The position numbers were made by a program, and so were the translations under genes. A DNA stretch of 64,000 nucleotides, from positions 1,302,001 to 1,366,000 of the forward strand of contig NZ_CP049866.1 in the NCBI RefSeq assembly GCF_011300215.1, written 5' to 3'. The DNA comes from Nocardioides piscis (lineage in GTDB: Bacteria; Actinomycetota; Actinomycetes; Propionibacteriales; Nocardioidaceae). This document shows, piece by piece, positions 48,978 to 62,330 of the stretch. Position 1 is the stretch's first letter, and every line of letters begins with the position of its first letter. The notes under the pieces are model-generated. The model saw only the letters and a program-made list of their open reading frames with translations, was not told the DNA's origin and made no database searches.

Positions 48978-49391
48978 TCAGGCCAGCAACGCGTCGTACG
49001 CCGACTGGCTGGAGTCGCGCAGGAACGTCGAGCACCGCTCCCACTCCGCGGTCTCTCCGATGGCCCGGGCGCTGAGGGCGAGCATCGCCAGGCAGGTCAG
49101 GAAGCCGCGGTTGGGCTCGTGCTCCCACGGCACCGGGCCGTGGCCCTTCCAGCCGTTGCGGCGCAACATGTCGAGCGAGCGGTGGTAGCCGACGCGCGAA
49201 TAGGCATAGATGGTCACGTCGTCAGCGCCCTCGTCCTGGGCCCGCCGCGCCATGGCGGCCCACGCCGCGGGGGAGTCGGGGTGCCGGCGGACCACGGCCT
49301 CGGGCGCGTCCCCGGCCTCGACCTCGGCAGCAGCGGGATCGACGGGAAGATGCGTGGGCGGGGGACCGGCTAGGAGATCGACGTGGCTCAT
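48978..49391 (-). CDS. DUF3151 domain-containing protein
   Basis: 137 residues. The DUF3151 pattern is clear: VDPAAAEVEAGDAPEAVVRRHPDSPAAWA, followed by YHRSLDMLRRNGWKGHGPVPWEHEPNRGFL. Actinobacteria-restricted family of unknown function, almost always next to fba, as here. ATG 49391 is the only reasonable start. Helical, soluble, no catalytic motif. Confidence 0.93.
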   Translation of the reverse strand: MSHVDLLAGPPPTHLPVDPAAAEVEAGDAPEAVVRRHPDSPAAWAAMARRAQDEGADDVTIYAYSRVGYHRSLDMLRRNGWKGHGPVPWEHEPNRGFLTCLAMLALSARAIGETAEWERCSTFLRDSSQSAYDALLA

Positions 49392-49423
49392 GGGGCCAGC
49401 CTAGGCGCGGGGCCCCATTCACC

Positions 49424-49495
49424 TTGTAACGCGCTGTCCGCGGCAGTCCCGACCCGTCGCTACGGCGCAGTTGTGCGCCGGACAGCGCGTTACAA
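49424..49495. repeat. 72-bp hairpin palindrome, copy 1
   Basis: Perfect 17-bp inverted arms TTGTAACGCGCTGTCCG (49424-49440) and CGGACAGCGCGTTACAA (49479-49495) around a 38-base loop. It lies upstream of the AbiEi/DUF559-type gene. A second, related copy ends that gene at 50635-50704. Confidence 0.9.
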
Positions 49496-49607
49496 CGCGC
49501 ACGGGGGTGGGGAGGCAGGCATCCACAGGGGGACCCGGCGGTGGTGCGTCCACAGGCAGTCGCAGCTCGGGCGACGCGACGCCGGAGCCGAGGGTCACCC
49601 TGACGCC

Positions 49608-50639
49608 ATGGAGACACGGATCGAGGCAGCAGTAGCCGCGGGAGGAGGTCTGGTCACAGCCAGATGCCTCCGGGAGCTGGGCGTGGATCCGCGCAGGATC
49701 ACGCGAGCCGTCCGCGACCGAGAGCTCGTCGCCGTACGCCGCGGTGTCTACACCACGGCCGCACGGTGGGACGCGCTCGATGAGTTCAGCGGGCGCCCCT
49801 TGGCTCGGGTGCAGTCCGTGCACCGCACGGTGTCGCTGCCACATGTGTTCAGTCACGACTCCGCGGCGCTGATCCACGGGCTGCCGCTCATCGACGCGCG
49901 CACTGCCGACGTGCACCTCACCCGGGCAAGGTGCCTGGGATCGAGGGTCCGTCACGGCGTGCGGCATCACGGCGCGCCATACGCCCCGGCCTCCGTGATC
50001 GACGTCGAGGGGCTGCCCGTGCTGCCCATCGCCCGCACCGTCGCGGACCTGGCCCGGGAGCACGGCTACGAGGCGGGGTTGGTGGCTGCCGACGCCGCAC
50101 TGCGCAGAGGGGCCACAGTCCGAGAGCTTCGAGATGCGTATGCCGACATGCGCTCCTGGCCGGGCGTCTCGTGCTGTCGCGCCGTCGTGGACGACGCCGA
50201 CGCGGGAGCCGAGAGCGCCGCCGAGACGTTGGCGCGCATCCTGGTCAACGAGCTGGGGATCGGTCCGGTGGAGACCCAGTTCCCGGTCGTCGTCGACAAC
50301 CGGGTCCGGTGGGCCGACCTGCGAGTGGGATGCCACCTATTCGAGGTCGACGGGTTCATCAAGCTCCTGCCGGCCGCCGATGGTGGGGTGGCGACCAGGT
50401 CTGCTGCCCGGGTCGTGTGGGACGACCGCAAACGTGACCGAGAGCTGGGCGCCGTCGGGCTGGGGATCAGCCACCTCGTGTGGGCTGACTTCTTCGGCTT
50501 GCGGCGCGCCCAGGCACTCGAACGCCTGGCCGCTGAGCATGCGATCACCACCGCTCGCTTCGGTGCGAGGCTGCCCGACCACCTGGAGATCGCGGCGAGG
50601 CGGCTGCGCGGGCGTCGCACCCCCACCGTGGGTCTGTAA
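49608..50639 (+). CDS. AbiEi-type antitoxin/DUF559-like protein, flanked by palindromes
   Basis: 343 residues from ATG 49608. The N-terminus is a winged helix like AbiEi antitoxins (LVTARCLRELGVDPRRITRAVRDRELVAVRRGVY), followed by the characteristic HDSAALIHGLPL and PIARTVADLAREHG. The C-terminal third (LARILVNELGIGPVETQFPV then VRWADLRVGCHLFEVDGF) resembles the DUF559/Vsr-like endonuclease fold, but key acidic residues are only partly recognisable. No AbiEii toxin gene is adjacent. Its stop codon TAA lies inside the second hairpin. Such solo proteins are abundant in actinobacteria; role unproven. Confidence 0.8.
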   Translation: METRIEAAVAAGGGLVTARCLRELGVDPRRITRAVRDRELVAVRRGVYTTAARWDALDEFSGRPLARVQSVHRTVSLPHVFSHDSAALIHGLPLIDARTADVHLTRARCLGSRVRHGVRHHGAPYAPASVIDVEGLPVLPIARTVADLAREHGYEAGLVAADAALRRGATVRELRDAYADMRSWPGVSCCRAVVDDADAGAESAAETLARILVNELGIGPVETQFPVVVDNRVRWADLRVGCHLFEVDGFIKLLPAADGGVATRSAARVVWDDRKRDRELGAVGLGISHLVWADFFGLRRAQALERLAAEHAITTARFGARLPDHLEIAARRLRGRRTPTVGL

Positions 50640-50704
50640 CGCGCTGTTAGCTGCGCACCCGCCCCGTTGCAGTGGCGCGGCAGTGCGAGTAGCAGCGCGT
50701 TACA
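50635..50704. repeat. 70-bp hairpin palindrome, copy 2
   Basis: Arms TGTAACGCGCTGTTA (50635-50649) and TAGCAGCGCGTTACA (50690-50704), 14 of 15 paired, with a 40-base loop. The core TGTAACGCGCTG is shared with copy 1. The left arm contains the TAA stop of the AbiEi/DUF559-type gene, and the right arm contains the TAA stop of lysS on the other strand, so it terminates two converging genes. Confidence 0.88.
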
Positions 50705-52403
50705 AGGACACGGCCGGCGCGCCGAGCAACGAGCGGACGGTGTCCTGGCCGAGCGCGACGATCAGCGTCGGCAGGCGGGGGCCGCGGTCGGCGTCGACCA
50801 GCAGGTTGTAGAGCAACCTGAAGAACGCCTTCTGGTCGGCCTTGACCTCATCGGTCGGGGCGTCGTCGAAGCCGAGGCCCCGAGCCACCTTCGGGACGCC
50901 GTAGACGACCGTGGTCACCGACTCGAGCTCGAGCTCCTCGGGCAGCCGGTCGAGGAAGAGCCGCAGCCACAGCTCCTCGTCCTCGGACAGCGACGCGAGC
51001 CGTGCGGTGTCCGGCGTGGCCCGCACGGTCGTGCGCTCCGACTCGGGCAGCGATGCGGTCCACGCCATCGCTCGGCCGAGGCGCGGTTCGAGGTCGGCGA
51101 CGGATGTGTGGGGGAAGCCGAGGTGCTCGATGACCCGGCTGATCAGGTCGGCCGAGCCGGCCGTCACGTCAGCCACCGAGGACAGGGTCCGGAACGGCAC
51201 CGGGACCGCCGAGGTCGGCAGGGGACCGGCGGCGGTGGCCGAGGCGCGTTCGAAGGCGAGGACCTGGGCGTCGCGCTTGGTGGGGTCGGCGGCCTTGCGT
51301 CGCAGGGCGTCCCACTCGTCGTACAACCGCACGACCTCGGGGCCGAAGTCGATGGTGAACGCCTGCTTGGGAGCCCGCCGGGTGTAGAGCCAGCGCACCA
51401 TCGGCGCCTCCAGGATGGCCAGCGCGTCGGCCGGCGTCGGCACCCCACCGCTCGACGACGACATCTTCTGCATCCCCGCGATCCCGACGAACGCATAGGT
51501 CACGCGCGCCGGTGCCCGCCAGTCGAAGATCGACGAGACGAGCTCCTGGCCGACGGTGTAGGAGGAGCCGGGCGTCATGTGGTCGAGCCCGGCCGGTTCG
51601 AAGTTGACCTTCTCCCAGGCCCACCTCATCGGCCAGTCGACCTTCCAGACGAGCTTGCCGCCGTCCTCGCTCGTGACGTTGGTGACGCCGCTGAAGCCAC
51701 AGACCTGACAGGTGTAGGAGAGGTCGGTGGAGTCGTCGTCATAGGCCGTGACGTCGGTGGTGTCGCGACCGCACTGACCGCACCACGGCTTGTAGGGGAA
51801 GCGGGAGAGAGCGCCGGAGCCGGTCGTCTCCTCCTCGTTGGCGACGGACTCGGCGAGCGAGGCTGCTTCCTCGTCGCTCTCGGCGACCGGACCGGTCTTG
51901 GTGCGATAGCCGGCGAGGACGTCCTCGATCCGGTCGCGGTGCCGGATGGCGTGCAGGATCTGGTCGCGATAGGTCCCGGCCTGATACATCAGCGTCTGGC
52001 TGATCTCGTCCATCTCGACGCCGAGCTCGGCCAGCGACGCCTGCAGCGGGGACTTGAAGTGCGTGGCCCAGGAGTCGTGGCACCCCCACGGGTCGGGTAC
52101 GGCGGACAGCGGCCGCCCGATGTGGTCGCTCCACTCCGGGGGGACCCCGGCAGGGACCTTGCGGAAGCGGTCGTAGTCGTCCCAGGAGTGCAGGTGGCGC
52201 ACGGCGATGCCCCGGCGCCGCAGCTCCTCCGCCACGAGGTGCGGGGTCAGGAACTCGCGCAGGTTGCCGAGGTGGATGGGTCCCGACGGGCTGGCGCCGG
52301 ACGCGACCGTGACGAGGTTGCCCTCGCCGGCGTGCCGGACGGCGTCGTCAGCCGCGCGCGTGACCCAGTCGATGGGGTCGCCGGACTGTCCGCCTCGTGT
52401 CAT
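50700..52403 (-). CDS. lysS: Class I lysyl-tRNA synthetase
   Basis: 567 residues from ATG 52403. HIGH-like ASPSGPIHLGNL (about 37-48), a KMSKS-like KMSSSSG, and two zinc-binding Cys pairs (CGQCG and CQVCG), then VWKVDWPMRW. These are features of the archaeal-type class I LysRS, structurally unrelated to the class II LysS of most bacteria. It charges tRNA-Lys. Whether a class II enzyme also exists lies outside this window. The longer open frame to 52553 is not used. The stop is in a hairpin arm. Confidence 0.9.
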   Translation of the reverse strand: MTRGGQSGDPIDWVTRAADDAVRHAGEGNLVTVASGASPSGPIHLGNLREFLTPHLVAEELRRRGIAVRHLHSWDDYDRFRKVPAGVPPEWSDHIGRPLSAVPDPWGCHDSWATHFKSPLQASLAELGVEMDEISQTLMYQAGTYRDQILHAIRHRDRIEDVLAGYRTKTGPVAESDEEAASLAESVANEEETTGSGALSRFPYKPWCGQCGRDTTDVTAYDDDSTDLSYTCQVCGFSGVTNVTSEDGGKLVWKVDWPMRWAWEKVNFEPAGLDHMTPGSSYTVGQELVSSIFDWRAPARVTYAFVGIAGMQKMSSSSGGVPTPADALAILEAPMVRWLYTRRAPKQAFTIDFGPEVVRLYDEWDALRRKAADPTKRDAQVLAFERASATAAGPLPTSAVPVPFRTLSSVADVTAGSADLISRVIEHLGFPHTSVADLEPRLGRAMAWTASLPESERTTVRATPDTARLASLSEDEELWLRLFLDRLPEELELESVTTVVYGVPKVARGLGFDDAPTDEVKADQKAFFRLLYNLLVDADRGPRLPTLIVALGQDTVRSLLGAPAVSL

Positions 52404-52430
52404 GGCCGGAAGGCTATCCGGCGCACGACG

Positions 52431-52470
52431 AAGGCACCGAAGTCGTCCCCTGCGGCGACTCCGGTGCCTT
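52431..52470. promoter_or_regulatory. Hairpin in the lysS leader region
   Basis: AAGGCACCG-A-AGTCG pairs with CGACT-C-CGGTGCCTT (14 of 15 pairs, 10-base loop), 28 bases before the lysS start, in the gap between lysS and the divergent LuxR-type gene. Possibly a leader structure for lysS or a dispersed palindrome; nothing shows a T-box. Confidence 0.45.
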
Positions 52471-52594
52471 GTGCGTCTGCTGCCATGTCGGCGGTCGGGC
52501 GGCACACCCCCCGGTGCTTCGCCCGACCTCGACGCAACCCCCATTGTGAACAAGTGCGATGCGCTATCCGTGGCCCAAAGCGGCCGGTGACACT

Positions 52595-53581
52595 ATGCTG
52601 CCAGTCGTGCCCCGTCGTCCGCTCGCCCAAGCTTTCGGTCTCCCGGCGCCCATGGACGAGCTCTATCGCACAGTGCTGACCGGGTCGGGTGGTTCGCTCG
52701 GCGAGCTCGCCCAGTCGCTGTTCGTGACGCCCGAGCAGCTCCTGCAACGTCTTGGCCCGCTGATCGCGAACGACATCGTCCGGGTCGACGGCGACACCCT
52801 GGACGTGGCCTCCCCGGTCGACGCGGTGTCGAGGTTCGTGACCGCCCAGGCCGACGCGCTCGCTGAGGCGGGCAGCCAGCTGCGTCGGATCGCCTCGTCC
52901 CTCCCGGTCCTGGTCGAGATGGGGGGCGAGCCCGCTCATGCCCCCTCCACGGTCATCGGTGCCGAGGTCGACACCGACAGCGAGGCCCTGGAGTCACTGC
53001 TCGGCATGATCGCGGAGTCGCACGGTGACCTGTGCTTCCTCCGTCCGGACCAGTGGCGGCTCTCCAGCGAGTCGACCATGGCCCTGGCCGTGAACAGTGC
53101 CGTCAGGTCAGGACGACGAGTGCGCGCCATCTATCCGGCGGGGGCGCTGAAGGAGGCGCCCGAGATCCTGATCGGGCGAGCCGCCATCGGCGAGCAGATC
53201 CGGGTGCTGCCCGAGGTCCCCAGCAGGCTGGCGATCGTGGGCGCCACCCGAGCCGTGCTGCCCGACCCCCTCGGTGTCCGCAACCAGCGGTGGCTCATCG
53301 TGCAGCACCAGACCATCGTGGCGAGCCTCACCGCGTGGTTCGACCTGCTGTGGGGATCGGCGACCGCCGTACCGATGCTCGACCGCGGAGAGGCACGACC
53401 CGACCTGCGGCGACTGCTGCTGGCCCAGCTCGCCGCCGGCGCCAAGGACGAGCAGATCGCGCGCAACCTCGGGACCAGCCTGCGAACGGTCCGCCGGCGC
53501 GTCGCCTCGCTGATGGACGAACTCGGCGTGGACAGCCGGTTCCAGGCCGGTGCAGAGGCCGCACGCCGGGGCTGGCTGTAG
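52595..53581 (+). CDS. LuxR/TrmB-type helix-turn-helix transcriptional regulator
   Basis: 328 residues from ATG 52595. N-terminal winged helix of TrmB type (LDELYRTVLTGSGGSLGELAQSL region), a central domain with YPAGALKEAPE and MLDRGEARPD, and a C-terminal LuxR-like HTH (AAGAKDEQIARNLGTSLRTVRRRVASLMDELG). A regulator of this form often precedes actinobacterial peptide or secretion loci. It is 141 bp upstream of the repeat protein gene, in the same direction, hence a probable local activator. Confidence 0.85.
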   Translation: MLPVVPRRPLAQAFGLPAPMDELYRTVLTGSGGSLGELAQSLFVTPEQLLQRLGPLIANDIVRVDGDTLDVASPVDAVSRFVTAQADALAEAGSQLRRIASSLPVLVEMGGEPAHAPSTVIGAEVDTDSEALESLLGMIAESHGDLCFLRPDQWRLSSESTMALAVNSAVRSGRRVRAIYPAGALKEAPEILIGRAAIGEQIRVLPEVPSRLAIVGATRAVLPDPLGVRNQRWLIVQHQTIVASLTAWFDLLWGSATAVPMLDRGEARPDLRRLLLAQLAAGAKDEQIARNLGTSLRTVRRRVASLMDELGVDSRFQAGAEAARRGWL

Positions 53582-53722
53582 GCGCGTGGCAGCCTCACCC
53601 ATAGGGATGGATCGCGGCTGATCTGAGGCATTTGATCGGTCTAATGTGGGATATCGACCACATGTCACGACACCGATCTACGGCCCGCCACCGATCGTGG
53701 CGGGGACCAGGGAGGGACACCC

Positions 53723-55213
53723 ATGAGCACCGAAGAGCACGCACCCCTGACACCCGAGGAGCTCGCCGGGGAGGGCATCACGGCGCTGCCGGACAAGGAG
53801 GTCATCTCGATCCTCGACCTCGCCGCTGACGTCGACCTCGCGATCGACGGAGCAGCCCCGATCGACCTCGCCGTGGCTCTCAACGCCAACATCGTCGCCC
53901 CGATCGACGCTGCCGTCAGCGCCAACCTGCTGAGCGACAACTCCACCAGCCAGGCACTGGCGGACCAGGGCGTCCAGATCACGCAGACGATCGACGCCGA
54001 CGCGCTGGCAACAGGGGTCCAGGACAGCCAGATCGACCAGAGCGACACCGTCGTCCCCGGCACCACCGAGTCCGGCACCGGCACGACGGGCGGCGCCACG
54101 ACCGACGGCACCTCGGGCGACGGCATGCTGACGGCTGCCACGACCACCGACGACGCGACCCAGCCCCAGACCGAGGCCCTCTCCGCCACGAACAGTGAGC
54201 CCGTCGACGGCAGCGTCGTCGTGGACTCGGCCGGCAACGTGATCGGCACGCTCGACAGCGCGACCGGCAACGTCATCGGGTCGGACGGAGCCATCCTCGG
54301 TTCCCTCAACGAGACGACGGGTGTGGTCGTCGACTCGGCCGGCAACCTGATCGGCACCGTGACCGACATCATCGACGGCGCGACGGTCGTGGGCTCCAAC
54401 GGTGCGGTCCTCGGCGTCCTCGATGCCGCGACCGGCAACGTGCTCGACGCGTCGGGCAACGTGGTCGGCACCCTTGACCCGCTCACCGGTGAGGTGCTCA
54501 ACACCGTCGGCACCGTGGTGGGGACGGTCACCGGTCTCGTCGACGGCACGACGGTCCTCGACTCCGCCGGCAACGTGGTCGGGACCCTCGACGGCGTCAC
54601 CGGCAACGTCGTCGACTCCGCCGGCAACGTCATCGGCGCGCTCGACCCGATCACCGGTCAGGTCCTCGACGCCGCCGGCAACATCGTGGGCACGGTCGGT
54701 CAGGTCGTCGACGACGTCACCGACACGCTCGGCGGACTCAACACGGGCGACCTGCTCAAGGGCGACCTGCTCAACGTCGACGTCAACGTCGACCTCGACG
54801 CCGACCTGGCCGCGCCGATCAACGGCGCCGTGGCCGCCAATGCCAACGTCGCGGCGCCGATCGACGCCGCGGTCGCGGCCAACATCCTGTCCGAGGGTTC
54901 CGAGGCGACCGCCCTCGCCCAGCAGGACGCGATCATCACCCAGTCGATCACCGGTGTCGCGGAGGCGACCTCCGAGCAGACCTCGGACATCAACCAGTCC
55001 TCGGTCGAGCCGGTCGACACGGACACGGCCTCCGCTGACGGTGTCGACGGCATGGTCACCTCGGGCGACACCGAGTCGACGGGGACGACCGACCCCGCGC
55101 AGGTGGACCCCGCTCCTGAGGTCGTCGCCGAGGACCCCGCGACGACACCCACCGATGAGTCGACTGCGACCGACACCACGACGCCCGCTCCGGCGGAGAC
55201 CACGACGCAGTGA
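53723..55213 (+). CDS. Leader-bearing Ala/Gly/Thr-rich repeat protein, putative substrate of the M50 protease
   Basis: 496 residues, no signal peptide. AGGGAGGGAC precedes ATG 53723. Residues 1-33 look like a leader (acidic/Gly, ending LPDKEVISILDL). Module A (about 39-107) and module B (about 356-427) are duplicates sharing a core of the type VAPIDAAVxANxLS. Between them lie nine repeats of about 18 residues (165-330), consensus VVDSAGNVIGTLDPxTGN, a beta-solenoid-like pattern; about 70 residues at the end are acidic and rich in Thr, Asp and Pro. Its stop overlaps the start of the PqqD-M50 gene (GTGA), so they are translationally coupled. I know no named family for it. Confidence 0.8.
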   Translation: MSTEEHAPLTPEELAGEGITALPDKEVISILDLAADVDLAIDGAAPIDLAVALNANIVAPIDAAVSANLLSDNSTSQALADQGVQITQTIDADALATGVQDSQIDQSDTVVPGTTESGTGTTGGATTDGTSGDGMLTAATTTDDATQPQTEALSATNSEPVDGSVVVDSAGNVIGTLDSATGNVIGSDGAILGSLNETTGVVVDSAGNLIGTVTDIIDGATVVGSNGAVLGVLDAATGNVLDASGNVVGTLDPLTGEVLNTVGTVVGTVTGLVDGTTVLDSAGNVVGTLDGVTGNVVDSAGNVIGALDPITGQVLDAAGNIVGTVGQVVDDVTDTLGGLNTGDLLKGDLLNVDVNVDLDADLAAPINGAVAANANVAAPIDAAVAANILSEGSEATALAQQDAIITQSITGVAEATSEQTSDINQSSVEPVDTDTASADGVDGMVTSGDTESTGTTDPAQVDPAPEVVAEDPATTPTDESTATDTTTPAPAETTTQ

Positions 55214-57768
55214 CCACGCTGGTCGACGCCCCGGCGCGCGTCGACGGCGTCCAGCTCATCGGCGAGATGGTGGGGTCCGGCTATCGGACCCCACCGTCCC
55301 TGGTGCGCCGCGCCGACGGGCAGGTGCTCCAGCTCACCCCGCTGCTCTACCTCGTCCTGAGCGCTGTCGACGGCCGGCGCAGCTGTGCAGACATCGCAGG
55401 GCTCGTGGGCCCTGCGATGGGTCGGTCGGTGAGCGAGGACAACATCCGGACGCTGGTCGACGGGCAGCTGCGCCCACTCGGCCTGCTCCGGAAGGCTGAC
55501 GGGTCCGAGCCGGAGCTCAAGCGCTCCGACCCGCTCCTCGGCCTGAAGCTGCGCTGGGCAGCCACCGACCCCAGCACCACCCGTCGGCTCACCGACCCGT
55601 TCAGGCCGTTGTTCCGGCCGGTCGTCGCGGCCGCGGTCACGTTGGGCTTCGTGCTGGTCGTCGCCTGGGTCTTCTTCGACCGCGGGTTGGGAAGATCGGC
55701 GTACGACGCCTTCGACCGCCCGCACCTGTTGCTGCTCGTGTTCGCCGTCTCGGTCCTGTCAGGGGGATTCCACGAGTTCGGGCATGCCGCCGCAGCGCGC
55801 TACAGCGGCGCCCAGCCCGGTGTGATGGGGGCCGGGCTCTATCTCGTCTGGCCGGCTTTCTACACCGACGTGACCGACAGCTACCGGCTCGGCCGGGCCG
55901 GCCGGATCCGCACCGACCTGGGCGGTCTCTACTTCAACGCCATCGTCGTGTGCCTGACGTTCGTCTGGTGGTGGGCCACCGGTTGGGAGGCGCTGCTGCT
56001 GCTGGTCGCGACCCAGGTCCTCCAGATGGCCCAGCAGCTCCTGCCCCTGCTGCGCTTCGACGGCTATCACCTGCTCGCCGACATCGCCGGCGTCCCCGAC
56101 CTCTATCACCGGATCCGCCCGACCCTGCTCGGCCTGCTGCCGCACCGCTGGAACGACCCCGAGAACGCCGTCCTCAAGCCGTGGTCGCGCGCCGTGATCA
56201 CCCTGTGGGTCTTGATCACCATCCCGATGATGGCGCTCATGCTGTGGGCGCTGGTCATGGCCGTCCCCAGGCTCCTCGGCACTGCGGGAGGCGCGATCGA
56301 GCGTGACACCGAAGCCGTGGCCCGGGCGTGGGCAGACGGCGGTGCCATCGACGTCGCCGCCCACGTGCTCCAGGTCCTGGCGGTCGTCCTGCCGATCCTC
56401 GCCTGCGCGATGATCCTGGGCCGGATCGGCGTCAGGTGGTTCGGCGGACTGGCGAAGTGGAGCCGCGGCTCGGCCCCCAAGCGAGTGTTGGCCGCTGCCG
56501 CGAGCGCCCTGCTCGTGACCGGGCTCTCCTGGGCCTGGTGGCCGAATCCTGGCACCTACCGTCCCATCGGCCCCGATGAGCGCGGCCTCGTCACCAGCCT
56601 CCTGCCCGTGTCGAGCACGGGCCCAGCTGACGTGGTGGGTCGCGCCGCGCCCGGCATGCTGGCCGATCCCGGGTCGCGCCCGATCGGCTCGGCGGCCCAG
56701 GAGCGTCTCTCCAGCGGCGAACCCCTGGTCGCGGTCCTGGAGAAGGGTGAGAAGCGCCCGACGAAGCAGGACCCGGTCATGGCGATGGTGCTCGTCCCGA
56801 CGAGCGAGCCGGGTGCCACCGCCTCGGCGACGAGCTCCCCGGACGTCTTGCCGTCCGACGGGCCCGCTCCCACTGCCGCTCCCCCTGCGACGACTCCGGT
56901 GGCCACGGAGCCCCCCGGTGGCACGTGGGTCTTCCCGTTCGACCAGCCGTTGGCACCCGAGGAGGGCGACAACCAGGCGCTGGCGGTCAACACCACCGAC
57001 GGCTCCGTCACCTACGACCTGGCCTTCGCCCTCGTGTGGGCCGAGGACGACGAGGTCCTCAACGTGAACGAGGCCCACGCCTACGCCTCGTGCACCGACT
57101 GTGCCGCCGTCGCGGTCGCCTTCCAGGTCGTCCTGATCATGGACGACGCCCAGGTGGTGATCCCGCAGAACCTCGCGACAGCCGCCAACTACGAGTGCCT
57201 GCGGTGCATCACCGCGGCCATCGCCAACCAGCTCGTCCTGTCGGTGCAGGAGGCACCGGGCGAGGAGGAGCTGCACGACCTCGCTGACGTCTGGACGCGG
57301 CTGCTGGAGTTCGGTCAGAACATCACGTCCTACACCTTGACGGAGGTCGCCGAGCAGCTGGAGACATTCAAGGAGGAGATCATCACGATCCTCGGTGAGT
57401 CCCCCGTGGTGGAGCTGGACGACTCGACCACGGCGACTCCTGCCGACGGTTCGACAAGTCCGTCGCCGACCACGACGACGTCGGGCACCGCCACGCCCTC
57501 TCCGTCGACGACGACCAGTCCGTCGACGACGTCCTCGCCCTCGCCCACCCAGAGCAGCAGCACGACGCCGGCGCCGACCACGTCCACCAGCTCACCCACG
57601 ACGACCAGCTCGCCGACGACCACGAGCTCGCCGACCACGACCACGACCACCACGCCGTCGCCGACCACGACGTCGTCGCCGTCACCGTCGACGACCCAGT
57701 CGTCCTCGACGTCGACGGCATCGACGTCGACGTCGAGCGGAACGGTGTCGCCGACCGCCACACCCTGA
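55210..57768 (+). CDS. Membrane M50-type zinc metalloprotease with N-terminal PqqD/RRE-like domain
   Basis: 852 residues from GTG 55210. Residues about 30-95 match a PqqD/RRE-like fold (RRADGQVLQLTPLLYLVLSAVDGRRS). Membrane region 135-440 with about eight helices contains the zinc motif HEFGH (188-192) and a probable third ligand in FDGYHLLAD (283-290), as in the site-2/YydH-type M50 proteases. An extracellular part (about 450-735) carries two CxxC pairs (CTDC 628-631, CLRC 663-666) with AVAVAFQVVLI-like repeats. The last 115 residues are almost only Ser, Thr and Pro. Likely binds the leader of the preceding protein and cleaves it; inference. Confidence 0.85.
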   Translation: MTTLVDAPARVDGVQLIGEMVGSGYRTPPSLVRRADGQVLQLTPLLYLVLSAVDGRRSCADIAGLVGPAMGRSVSEDNIRTLVDGQLRPLGLLRKADGSEPELKRSDPLLGLKLRWAATDPSTTRRLTDPFRPLFRPVVAAAVTLGFVLVVAWVFFDRGLGRSAYDAFDRPHLLLLVFAVSVLSGGFHEFGHAAAARYSGAQPGVMGAGLYLVWPAFYTDVTDSYRLGRAGRIRTDLGGLYFNAIVVCLTFVWWWATGWEALLLLVATQVLQMAQQLLPLLRFDGYHLLADIAGVPDLYHRIRPTLLGLLPHRWNDPENAVLKPWSRAVITLWVLITIPMMALMLWALVMAVPRLLGTAGGAIERDTEAVARAWADGGAIDVAAHVLQVLAVVLPILACAMILGRIGVRWFGGLAKWSRGSAPKRVLAAAASALLVTGLSWAWWPNPGTYRPIGPDERGLVTSLLPVSSTGPADVVGRAAPGMLADPGSRPIGSAAQERLSSGEPLVAVLEKGEKRPTKQDPVMAMVLVPTSEPGATASATSSPDVLPSDGPAPTAAPPATTPVATEPPGGTWVFPFDQPLAPEEGDNQALAVNTTDGSVTYDLAFALVWAEDDEVLNVNEAHAYASCTDCAAVAVAFQVVLIMDDAQVVIPQNLATAANYECLRCITAAIANQLVLSVQEAPGEEELHDLADVWTRLLEFGQNITSYTLTEVAEQLETFKEEIITILGESPVVELDDSTTATPADGSTSPSPTTTTSGTATPSPSTTTSPSTTSSPSPTQSSSTTPAPTTSTSSPTTTSSPTTTSSPTTTTTTTPSPTTTSSPSPSTTQSSSTSTASTSTSSGTVSPTATP

Positions 57769-57782
57769 TCCGTCCGGGTGTC

Positions 57783-58688
57783 CTAGCGGGGCAGGACCAT
57801 CTGGTAGGCGGCGCGCTCGAGTCGCCAGGAGCGACTGCGCTCGGGGCCATAGACCTCGCCGTCGGCGGAGACCCAGAACTCGTCACCGCGCACCGAGACC
57901 TCGTTGCCGCGGACATAGAGGACGTCGTCGCGCTCGTGGTGCTCACCGCGCCGCAGGTGTGCGACATAGCCGAGCTTGGCCGTGACGGAGACGGCTCGGG
58001 AGATCATCACGTCCAGGCTCCCGCTCTCGGGGTCGGCCTCCGGGGTGAGCTCGGTCCCGCCGCCGACGTTGGCGCCGTTGCCGACGGCCACCATCAGGAC
58101 GGGGCGGTCGAGGTCGTTGACGACCTTGCCGTCGACCTCGACGAGCAGCCGTTGGCTGGGGGGCTCGAACGCGGCGAGGACCGCCCCGATCGGATAGCCG
58201 AGCTTGCCGAGGTTGAGCCGGCCGACACCGACGCTGCCGAGTCGCCCCTTCCACCGGTGGCCTCGCCGACTGGCCTGGGCGCCGGCGCCGACGTGGACGT
58301 TGTTCACGACGACCGCGCCCGTCTCGTCGATGATCAGGTCGACCGGTCTCGGCTCGCCGTCCAGCGCGAGGTGTGCGGCCTCCTCGATGTCGAGGGGGAT
58401 GCCGGTGCCTCGCGCGAAGTCGTTGCCCGTGCCCATGGGGAGCAGTGCGAGGGTCTTGGTCGACAGCTCGTTGCGCTTGTGGAGCGCCGCGACGACCGCG
58501 TGGAGGCTTCCGTCGCCGCCCGCGACCACGATCCGGCGCGAACCCGCGCGGTGCAGCACGCCGTCGAGCTCACCGGGGTTGGAGGTCGCGCACACCTCGA
58601 CCGAAGCCTCGTGGCGGAGGATCGCCAAGGCCTGCTCGAGCGACGCCTCGTCGGAGGTGCCGGCGTCGCTGTTGGTGATGACCAGCAT
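57783..58688 (-). CDS. Diacylglycerol kinase-family lipid kinase
   Basis: 301 residues from ATG 58688. DAGK catalytic domain with VVAGGDGSLHAVVAAL (nucleotide binding) and LPMGTGNDFARGTGIP. The C-terminal half has VMVAVGNGANVGGGTELTPEADPESGSLDV, as in YegS/DgkB-type lipid kinases. It phosphorylates diacylglycerol or a related lipid. The longer frame to 58790 lacks support. It is convergent with the M50 gene and divergent from purA. Confidence 0.92.
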   Translation of the reverse strand: MLVITNSDAGTSDEASLEQALAILRHEASVEVCATSNPGELDGVLHRAGSRRIVVAGGDGSLHAVVAALHKRNELSTKTLALLPMGTGNDFARGTGIPLDIEEAAHLALDGEPRPVDLIIDETGAVVVNNVHVGAGAQASRRGHRWKGRLGSVGVGRLNLGKLGYPIGAVLAAFEPPSQRLLVEVDGKVVNDLDRPVLMVAVGNGANVGGGTELTPEADPESGSLDVMISRAVSVTAKLGYVAHLRRGEHHERDDVLYVRGNEVSVRGDEFWVSADGEVYGPERSRSWRLERAAYQMVLPR

Positions 58689-58726
58689 GGGATCCACCCG
58701 GCGGACAGTAGTCGACGGTGCGTTAA

Positions 58727-60115
<1,389 letters not shown>

Positions 60116-60166
60116 GGTTCGAGACGCCTCGTTGCGCCGCGGGCGCCTGACCCCCATGGTGTGGGC

Positions 60167-60973
60167 ATGGCTCGCGAACTCAACGACCTGACCGTCGCCA
60201 TCACCGGCGGCGCCCGCGGCATCGGGGCCGCCACCGCCGAGCGGCTCGAGCGGGCCGGCGCGGACGTGGTCATCGGTGACCGGGACGCCGACGTCCTCGC
60301 GGCGACGGCGCGCGACCTCGGTGTCCGCAGCCACCCCCTGGACGTCACCGACGCGACGAGCTGGCGAGACTTCGTCGCAGCAGCCGGCGCCGTCGACGTG
60401 CTCGTCAACAACGCCGGCATCATGCCGATCGGCTCGATCCTCAAGGAGGACGAAGCCGTCACCCGCGCGGTCGTCGACGTCAACCTGCACGGCGTCATCA
60501 TCGGCACGAAGGCGGTCGCCCCGCAGATGGCCGAGCGGGGGCGTGGACACATCATCAACGTGGCCTCGGCGGTCGGCCGGGTGGCCACGGCCGACGGTGC
60601 GACCTACACGGCCAGCAAGTTCGCGGTCGTCGGCTTCAGTGAGGCGACCCGCCTGGAGCTGGCCCCGCAGGGGATCGAGGTGTCGCTGGTGATGCCCACC
60701 GTGGTCCGCACCGAGCTGGCCGCGGGCATCAGGCAGGCCAAGGGCGTCAAGGAGATCGGGCCCGAGGACGTGGCCGAGGTGATCGAGCTGATGATCCGCA
60801 AGCCCAGGCCCGAGATGTGGGTGCCGCGCTGGACCCAGCCCATGTCGCGAGTGACGACGATGCTGCCCAAGCGCGTCCAGCAGGTCATCAGCGACCGCTT
60901 CGAGGCCAACGTGCTGGCCGAGCGTGACGACGCTGCCCGCTCCGCCTACGAGGAGCGCGTGCGACGCAGCTGA
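60167..60973 (+). CDS. SDR family oxidoreductase
   Basis: 268 residues. Cofactor loop TGGARGIG (13-20), VNNAGIM, catalytic Ser in NVASAVG, and YTASK with Tyr/Lys. NAD(P)-dependent oxidoreductase of unknown substrate; the C-terminal 80 residues (with PRPEMWVPRWTQPMSRV) extend beyond the core and suggest a longer, membrane-near 'SDR family 5-type' member. Start ATG 60167 (GTG 60161 possible). Between purA and purD, no purine role evident. Confidence 0.88.
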   Translation: MARELNDLTVAITGGARGIGAATAERLERAGADVVIGDRDADVLAATARDLGVRSHPLDVTDATSWRDFVAAAGAVDVLVNNAGIMPIGSILKEDEAVTRAVVDVNLHGVIIGTKAVAPQMAERGRGHIINVASAVGRVATADGATYTASKFAVVGFSEATRLELAPQGIEVSLVMPTVVRTELAAGIRQAKGVKEIGPEDVAEVIELMIRKPRPEMWVPRWTQPMSRVTTMLPKRVQQVISDRFEANVLAERDDAARSAYEERVRRS

Positions 60974-61046
60974 TCGAGTCCCTGCGACCGACCAGCGAGA
61001 TGAACGGGTTCGGGGAGTCGCTGCGCCGCCGATAGGATCAGCGCCC

Positions 61047-62330
61047 GTGAAGACTCTCGTGATCGGCACCGGAGGCCGCGAGCACGCCCTCGCACTGGCC
61101 CTGTCCCTCGATCCTGAGGTCAGCGAGGTCCACGCGGCGCCGGGCAATCCCGGCATCGGCGCGGTCGCCACCCTCCACGACGTCGACCCGATGGACGGTG
61201 CCGCGGTCGCGGCCCTCGCCTCCTCCCTCGACATCGACCTGGTGGTCGTCGGGCCCGAGGCGCCGCTGGTGGCGGGCGTCGCGGACGCAGTGCGTGAGGC
61301 CGGGATCGCCGTCTACGGGCCGTCGCAGGCCGCCGCGCAGCTCGAGGGGTCGAAGGCGTTCAGCAAGGAGGTGATGGCAGCCGCGGGTGTGCCGACGGCA
61401 GCCTCGCGGACGTGCGAGACGCCGGAGCAGGTCGCCGCCGCACTCGACGAGCTCGGAGCGCCATACGTCGTCAAGGACGATGCGCTCGCAGCCGGCAAGG
61501 GTGTCGTGGTGACCGGTGACCGCGACGAGGCGCTGGCCCACGCTGCGACCTGTGGGCGGGTGGTGATCGAGGAGTTCCTCGACGGGCCCGAGGTCTCCGT
61601 CTTCGCGGTCTGCGACGGGCAGCAGGCGCGGGCCCTCATGCCGGCCCAGGACTTCAAGCGGATCTTCGACGGTGGCCACGGCGCCAACACCGGCGGCATG
61701 GGCTCCTACGCTCCGCTGCCCTGGGCGCCGCCCGGGCTGGCGGACCAGGTGCTCGCGACCGTCGTCCAGCCGACGCTCGACGAGATGAACCGCCGTGGCA
61801 CCCCGTTCGTCGGCACCCTCTACGTCGGCCTCGCGCTGACCGTGGGCGGGCCGCGGGTGATCGAGTTCAACTGCCGCTTCGGCGACCCCGACACCCAGCC
61901 CGTCCTTGCCCTGCTCACCTCGCCCCTCGGTGGGTTGCTCAAGGCAGCCGCGGACGGCGACCTCGACTCGGTGCCCGAGCCCACCTTCGCCGACGGCGCC
62001 TGCGTCACCGTCGTGATGGCGAGCGCCGGCTATCCCGAGTCGTCATCGAAGGGCGACGTGATCGTGGGGACGGAGACCCTCGCCAAGGAGCCGGACGTCG
62101 ACGTGATCCACGCCGGCACGGCCCGCACCGACGCCGGGCTCGTGACCGCCGGCGGGCGCGTGCTCGCCGTACGCGCGACGGGATCGGACGTCGCCGATGC
62201 CCGGGCCAAGGCATATGAGGGCGTCGCCACCATCTCGTTCCCCGGCGCCCAGTGGCGCCGCGACATCGCGGCCGAGCCGCTCGGTGTCGTCGAGGGCGCC
62301 TCGTTCACCACCCCGACCGGAGAGTCCTGA
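61047..62330 (+). CDS. purD: Phosphoribosylamine--glycine ligase
   Basis: 427 residues from GTG 61047. ATP-grasp enzyme: VLVIGTGGREHALALAL-type start, VVVGPEAPLVAGVAD, VVKDDALAAGKGVVV, VIEEFLDGPEVSVF, and FNCRFGDPDTQPVL. It adds glycine to phosphoribosylamine in purine synthesis. The start overlaps nothing; the stop is one base before the purB start, so purD-purB are coupled. Confidence 0.96.
   Translation: MKTLVIGTGGREHALALALSLDPEVSEVHAAPGNPGIGAVATLHDVDPMDGAAVAALASSLDIDLVVVGPEAPLVAGVADAVREAGIAVYGPSQAAAQLEGSKAFSKEVMAAAGVPTAASRTCETPEQVAAALDELGAPYVVKDDALAAGKGVVVTGDRDEALAHAATCGRVVIEEFLDGPEVSVFAVCDGQQARALMPAQDFKRIFDGGHGANTGGMGSYAPLPWAPPGLADQVLATVVQPTLDEMNRRGTPFVGTLYVGLALTVGGPRVIEFNCRFGDPDTQPVLALLTSPLGGLLKAAADGDLDSVPEPTFADGACVTVVMASAGYPESSSKGDVIVGTETLAKEPDVDVIHAGTARTDAGLVTAGGRVLAVRATGSDVADARAKAYEGVATISFPGAQWRRDIAAEPLGVVEGASFTTPTGES

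Follow-up and report, generated by a model that had tools for sequence, protein, structure and literature searches.

A conserved gene pair of Actinomycetota, encoding an RRE-site-2 protease and a large leader-bearing protein, as a probable leader-guided processing module

In this analysis we examine two adjacent genes of Nocardioides piscis, one encoding a large protein with a leader-like N-terminus (here called the substrate protein, after its proposed role) and the other a membrane protease of the M50 (site-2 protease) type whose N-terminus resembles the RRE, a PqqD-like recognition domain of enzymes acting on ribosomally synthesized and post-translationally modified peptides (RiPPs). Both lie in the window, by which we mean the whole stretch of 64,000 nucleotides (nt) analysed (contig NZ_CP049866.1, positions 1,302,001 to 1,366,000). 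The substrate gene (53723-55213, + strand, 496 amino acids (aa)) is followed on the same strand by the M50 gene (55210-57768, 852 aa, GTG start), which overlaps its end by 4 nt. An earlier note on this DNA, made from its letters, had joined these genes and an upstream regulator gene into one unit in which the M50 protein would recognize and cut the substrate protein; the open reading frames (ORFs), their sizes, the overlap and an HEFGH motif at residues 188-192 of the M50 protein are as it described them.

The substrate protein consists, in order, of a leader (residues 1-33; 53723..53821), a core domain A (34-107; 53822..54043), a linker of beta-flower repeats (about 158-328; 54194..54706), a second, leaderless copy of the core, A' (346-426; 54758..55000), and a Thr/Asp/Pro-rich tail, all on the + strand. 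The leader runs from L-x3-EL to LPDKEVISILDL (residues 22-33), and core A from AAPIDLAVALNANIVAPIDAAVSANLLS to IDQ. The linker repeats match DUF3659 above and Bflower_2 below the Pfam cut-off, and AlphaFold2 models residues 161-320 with a mean pLDDT of 76-95 per block; it also predicts long strands at 78-105 and 397-424, with a confidence per block of 57-69. The N-terminus is hydrophilic and the most hydrophobic 19-residue stretch is internal (47-65, mean 1.52), in keeping with the earlier suggestion of a leader-like N-terminus lacking a signal peptide. After the leader, the remaining 463 residues comprise 1 Lys, 69 acidic residues and no Arg, His, Cys, Trp, Tyr or Phe.

Hydropathy assigns seven transmembrane helices to the M50 protein (55210..57768, + strand) in an N-in/C-out arrangement, the helix ends being placed by hand and the hydrophobic windows at 626-651 being assigned to an outer domain rather than to the membrane. 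Its N-terminal RRE (PqqD-like) domain spans residues about 6-95 (55225..55494, + strand), and, as the earlier note had proposed, a structure model predicts an RRE-like winged-helix fold of three strands followed by three helices at residues about 2-98. The protease core carries the features of a site-2 protease, namely an HExxH at a transmembrane helix (HEFGH at 188-192; 55771..55785, + strand) and the Asp of a second motif (FDGY at 283-286). Family profiles are matched below their cut-offs, weakly in the case of Pfam M50 (E 0.4), with E 6.8e-28 and 97.9 bits (cut-off 300) for the daptide protease NF041824, and with E 1.5e-9 and 37.9 bits (cut-off 225) for YydH/LiaK NF058609. Beyond the membrane region lie an outer domain with two CxxC pairs, here termed Cys4 (residues about 573-735; 56926..57414, + strand), and a Ser/Thr/Pro-rich C-terminal tail (57415..57765, + strand).

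The pairing of these genes is widely conserved. An alignment of 20 M50 proteins scanned against species genomes recovered 286 relatives, of which the best 80 loci were examined. Record titles of these 80 include Nocardioides, Terrabacter, Arthrobacter, Pseudarthrobacter, Sinomonas, Mycolicibacterium, Mycobacterium, Pedococcus, Phycicoccus, Kribbella, Actinokineospora, Geodermatophilus and Microbacterium, among others, as well as one metagenome-assembled genome labelled Chloroflexi. A protein bearing LP[DA]KEV is encoded directly upstream of the M50 gene in 79 of the 80, as it is at the window locus; in the exception (L041) the contig starts inside the upstream gene, which carries core sequence. 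The earlier note had staked its proposal on linkage of this kind in other genomes, and the linkage is conserved. Clustering of the ORFs of 70 aa or more in the 81 loci gave an M50 family present in every locus and a substrate family present in 80, while the other families found in at least 48 loci overlie these two genes, by position, on the opposite strand or in another frame. The next sense-strand neighbour family (about 770 aa; a prolyl oligopeptidase in L014) occurs in 22 of the 81. Among these unannotated ORF families no modifying enzyme common to the 81 loci was found, and neither a regulator gene nor, with ORFs below 70 aa left unclustered, a transporter or immunity gene common to them was seen.

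Broader draws of genomes gave a consistent picture. Of 120 genomes drawn from the family, 18 are matched by M50 residues 1-450, and 15 of these 18, but no others, by the substrate profile (A3); of the M50-only genomes, G067 and G082 hold an M50 of another type (about 40% identical) and in G059 the gene runs off the contig. Among 346 genomes of the phylum, M50 matches were obtained in 47 (many weak) and substrate-profile matches in 18, with 17 of these 18 also matching M50; in the remaining genome (G125) the peptides lie on the minus strand within 111 nt of the contig start, so that any gene after them would lie outside the contig. The full two-core type makes up eight of the 18, and a leader protein stands upstream of M50 in all eight. 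One genome (G024) holds two copies of the pair (L135 and L136), with M50 proteins 74% and 55% identical to that of the window; each copy has a two-core substrate. A Pseudarthrobacter locus (L014:5731-6585, +) additionally encodes, upstream of the substrate gene, a 284-aa protein that by eye resembles the C-terminal portion of the M50 protein but has no protease core; the match recovered at this locus spans it.

Across the 80 substrates, which range from 209 to 506 aa with the starts chosen, the mean majority share is 0.90 for LPDKEVxSxLDL, 0.78 for core domain A and 0.63 for the part of the leader preceding the motif, in which L, E and L are near invariant. As the substrates were chosen by LP[DA]KEV.[ST], the motif share is inflated, the value of 1.00 for L, P, K, E and V arising partly by construction; this choice failed only for the contig-cut L041 among the 81 loci. 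The two core copies stand on either side of a linker of 23-240 residues (70 of the 80 substrates measured), and only the first bears a leader, profile matches to the second starting at profile position 15-22. Residues after the leader motif comprise 0.10% Lys, 0.09% Arg and no Cys, and 45 of the 80 substrates have neither Lys nor Arg there, so that trypsin would yield almost no peptides. A search with the substrate protein recovered 335 relatives, indicating that the long frame is conserved as a protein; four of these (P0124, P0126, P0128 and P0134) bear a recent Pfam number, PF27499, which the Pfam scan made here did not report for the window protein.

Further resolution came from other classes of the phylum, where matches to the substrate profile fall in runs of short ORFs. 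In each of three such loci (L175, L176 and L178) an RRE-M50 gene is preceded by three tandem peptides; these are 60-76 aa long and have leaders such as LTQEELQAQSGEELPEREEM and, after them, the core seen in domain A of the window, such as ALINANLAAPVNAAVAANVLSDNSVAYANAEQDVDIDQ. Similar short peptides occur in L177, L180, L181 and L182, on the strand opposite to M50 in L182 and L180, and with the leader Pro replaced in L181 and in one L177 peptide (LEDREE, LQDREE, LAEREE). Two loci (L179 and L183) encode one short peptide together with a 140-180-aa protein of one leader and two cores, an intermediate form. Judged from sequence, the precursor layout is leader-core in the short forms and leader plus two cores in the window, and the large substrate looks like an expanded form of short leader-core peptides. 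The distant loci therefore suggest an answer to the puzzle of substrate size raised in the earlier note, to which the protein seemed far larger than a usual RiPP precursor. A search with one short peptide recovered 4408 relatives among 4410 candidates; among the 120 matches listed, the names read 'hypothetical protein' and two are from Acidimicrobiales. Scans of six short peptides gave nothing in Pfam and, in NCBIfam, nothing better than E 0.07.

Other distant RRE-M50 genes (L127, L128, L187, L188 and L189) stand with short peptides of unrelated core that keep an LP.RE leader, and no short peptide was found beside RRE-M50 in L185, L190 and L191. In two of these loci (L127:3834-6125, - strand; L128:3483-5861, - strand) the C-terminal part of the M50 protein contains a KGGVGKTT P-loop region, which we take to be MinD/ParA-like, and the gene is preceded by two short peptides with leaders LPTRETLT and LPRRETMS/LPRRETLS; the protein would thus appear to be an ATPase fused to a leader-reading protease. 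In L177 (genome G286) tandem peptides and a secreted Cys4 protein occur together while the M50 matches of the genome are on other contigs, showing that the parts can be unlinked.

At least two CxxC lie past the transmembrane region in all 81 M50 proteins of the two-core loci, and the last 80 aa comprise more than 75% S/T/P/A/G/E in 80 of the 81. In the phylum draw, both CxxC pairs are present in the six M50 proteins read whole beside two-core substrates (L137, L138, L139, L140, L146 and L147); L141 aside, no CxxC pairs were found in the 13 others read, several of which are incomplete or not beside a known peptide. Short-peptide loci encode Cys4 as a separate gene (L175, 1439-2164; L182, 1761-2453), each overlapping the end of the M50 gene by 4 nt. 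BLASTP aligns these two proteins to the window Cys4 domain with 41% identity (E 1e-26) and 39% identity (E 4e-20), respectively, and a Cys4 profile built from 67 of the 81 fused M50 proteins and run against the ORFs of 19 distant loci detects them (E 7e-33 and 1.5e-26) along with further copies in L177 (5e-22) and L180 (4e-16). Fusion of Cys4 to the protease in one lineage and its encoding alongside in another points to a shared function, and the signal-peptide-like start, judged by eye, of the separate proteins of L175, L182 and L177 agrees with an outer placement. The secreted Cys4 protein is followed in two loci by a lipoprotein-like protein of about 260 aa (L175:666-1442, -; L182:961-1764, -), whose LppX/LprG-type likeness is by eye only, with no Pfam match above cut-off.

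Together, the conserved pairing, the conserved leader, the modelled RRE-like fold, the intact zinc motifs and the short peptides sharing both leader style and core make it probable, in our judgement, that the pair is a leader-guided processing module, in which the RRE binds, the M50 core cuts, and the product is released or displayed outside with handling by Cys4. Under this proposal, the cytosolic-side RRE domain would bind the leader of the upstream protein (L-x3-EL...LPDKEV.S.LDL), the site-2 protease core would cut at the membrane near the leader end, and the leaderless product would then be released or displayed outside, where the outer Cys4 domain may handle or receive it. From these features we infer that the leader is bound and cut, where the cut falls, that the M50 protein exports the product or takes part in its export, and what the product does. 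Export is the least secure part of this proposal, no transporter common to the loci having been seen. The interpretation of the earlier note is partly supported: its linkage and RRE-like fold are upheld, and its inclusion of the regulator in the unit is not supported.

We favour a surface fibre or coat as the product because of its size and composition, the richness in strands of its two cores and the wall-like tail of its partner. More tentatively, these loci may represent an undescribed route for surface proteins in Actinomycetota in which a leader-reading intramembrane protease alone replaces signal peptide, signal peptidase and dedicated exporter. Its outer Cys4 domain, encoded as a free secreted protein in deeper lineages, would receive a Lys/Arg-poor, Cys-free, beta-rich product and build it into a fibre or coat invisible to trypsin-based proteomics, and the system would have arisen from RiPP-like tandem peptides through the union of two cores in a single chain. 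To surface amyloids such as curli and chaplins, which use ordinary signal peptides, the product bears a resemblance only, in the Gln/Asn/Ala-rich alternating strands and the outer location that are both proposed for it here. The curli (CsgA) repeat pattern, S-x5-Q-x-G-x2-N-x-A-x3-Q, is absent from the window substrate, and no curlin or chaplin Pfam family matched at E <= 1 or, for chaplin, E <= 10, in searches whose HMMER filters may drop weak matches.

The main rival to a fibre or coat is an antibacterial, bacteriocin-like peptide or protein, either unmodified or with an unrecognised modification, whose two membrane-active cores would be matured and exported by the M50 protein; we hold this to be unlikely. 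EpeX, a short modified peptide, offers the precedent. Its M50 protease, EpeP, is thought to cleave and export it, although some EpeX was still produced when epeP was lost (PMC10885120). The window protein is a relative of EpeP/YydH (NF058609), with a match limited to the protease core (residues 171-293), and such RiPP proteases among its relatives, the tandem-precursor look of the short forms and the moderately hydrophobic A/V/I-rich segment of the core (mean 1.52) all fit a bacteriocin. However, no immunity or transporter gene common to the loci was seen among ORFs of at least 70 aa. Bacteriocins change fast, whereas the core is well conserved across genera (0.78 for domain A in the 80 substrates), and the acidic product is without the positive charge usual in bacteriocin-like peptides. 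That no modifying enzyme common to the loci was found among ORF families of at least 70 aa would argue against calling the substrate a RiPP.

Site-2 proteases often act in signalling, and, with cleavage of the substrate here deduced from sequence, the M50 protein might instead bind its neighbour through the RRE as a chaperone or regulator without processing it, the pair forming a signalling system, for example for regulated proteolysis of another membrane protein. Such an arrangement seems improbable, as substrates of widely differing size and core carry the leader at their very N-terminus, which is the pattern of leader-guided processing, the 81 M50 ORFs retain an intact HEFGH, and no regulator gene common to the loci was seen.

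The RRE-like fold itself resembles the RRE domains of RiPP enzymes (lasso B1, TbiB1, LynD, TruD, CteB and McbB), with 10-12% identity in the aligned rows; those domains occur in soluble proteins or enzymes and not in membrane proteases. The RRE-site-2 protease architecture is already known from daptides, whose peptidase MpaP (NF041824) is assigned leader removal (PMC10036551), and the two systems share an RRE N-terminal to the M50 core and a precursor gene beside the protease. Leader motif and substrate differ: daptide leaders carry ELExMEAP (PMC10036551), unlike the L-x3-EL...LPDKEV found here, the substrates here are 209-506 aa long in the 80 loci, and the M50 protein has, in addition, its Ser/Thr-rich tail and outer Cys4 domain. 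It is very improbable that the locus is simply a cluster for a daptide or another known RiPP in which a long precursor was called in error, for although the M50 protein is clearly related to the daptide protease and a short-chain dehydrogenase (SDR), a gene kind counted in daptide clusters, lies 2.4 kb downstream (60161-60973) past a diacylglycerol-kinase-like (DAGK) gene and purA, the protease score is far under the cut-off, the leader motif differs, the long frame is conserved as a protein, and no aminotransferase, methyltransferase, iron alcohol dehydrogenase or oxidative decarboxylase is among the six window neighbours scanned (49383 to 62327: class I lysyl-tRNA synthetase, AbiEi_4-like, DAGK, purA, SDR and purD). 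A literature search, which misses most subscription journals, found no published description of the two-gene module.

RRE domains are known to read the leaders of small peptides; here such reading appears to be tied to proteins of about 209-506 aa, in a module that spans Nocardioides, Arthrobacter, Mycolicibacterium, Pedococcus, Kribbella and other genera. If the proposal is correct, it would add a route by which large proteins are processed and perhaps exported, illustrate a path from peptide precursor to structural protein, and supply a likely partner enzyme for many uncharacterised short peptides (4408 relatives, with few loci examined); the product would also be missed by standard proteomics for want of trypsin sites.

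The regulator ORF (52559-53581, + strand; in-frame ATG at 52595) ends 141 nt before the substrate gene, on which it could act. Described earlier as of TrmB/LuxR type, it matches GerE and HTH_23 just above cut-off in the Pfam scan, and none of its 9 matches at E <= 1 is to a TrmB family. In a tblastn against 91 loci, the window's own among them but there starting after the regulator, the M50 query matched 91, the substrate query 76 and the regulator none; sequence upstream of the substrate is shorter than 2 kb in 6 of the 80 paired loci, which limits this search. As far as can be told, the regulator would be a bystander outside the conserved module, contrary to the three-gene unit first proposed. 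Upstream of it lie a class I lysyl-tRNA synthetase (50700-52553, - strand; PF01921, E 9.9e-110) and a protein with a weak, below-cut-off AbiEi_4 match (49383-50639, + strand; E 0.00028, 21.4 bits against 25). Within the 3.78-Mb contig holding the window the M50 query has one match, and a DNA pattern for LPDKEV, degenerate in part (Leu codons CTC/CTG only), has a single match in the genome and its reversed control none. Close hits that carry a name are from Terrabacter and Nocardioides.

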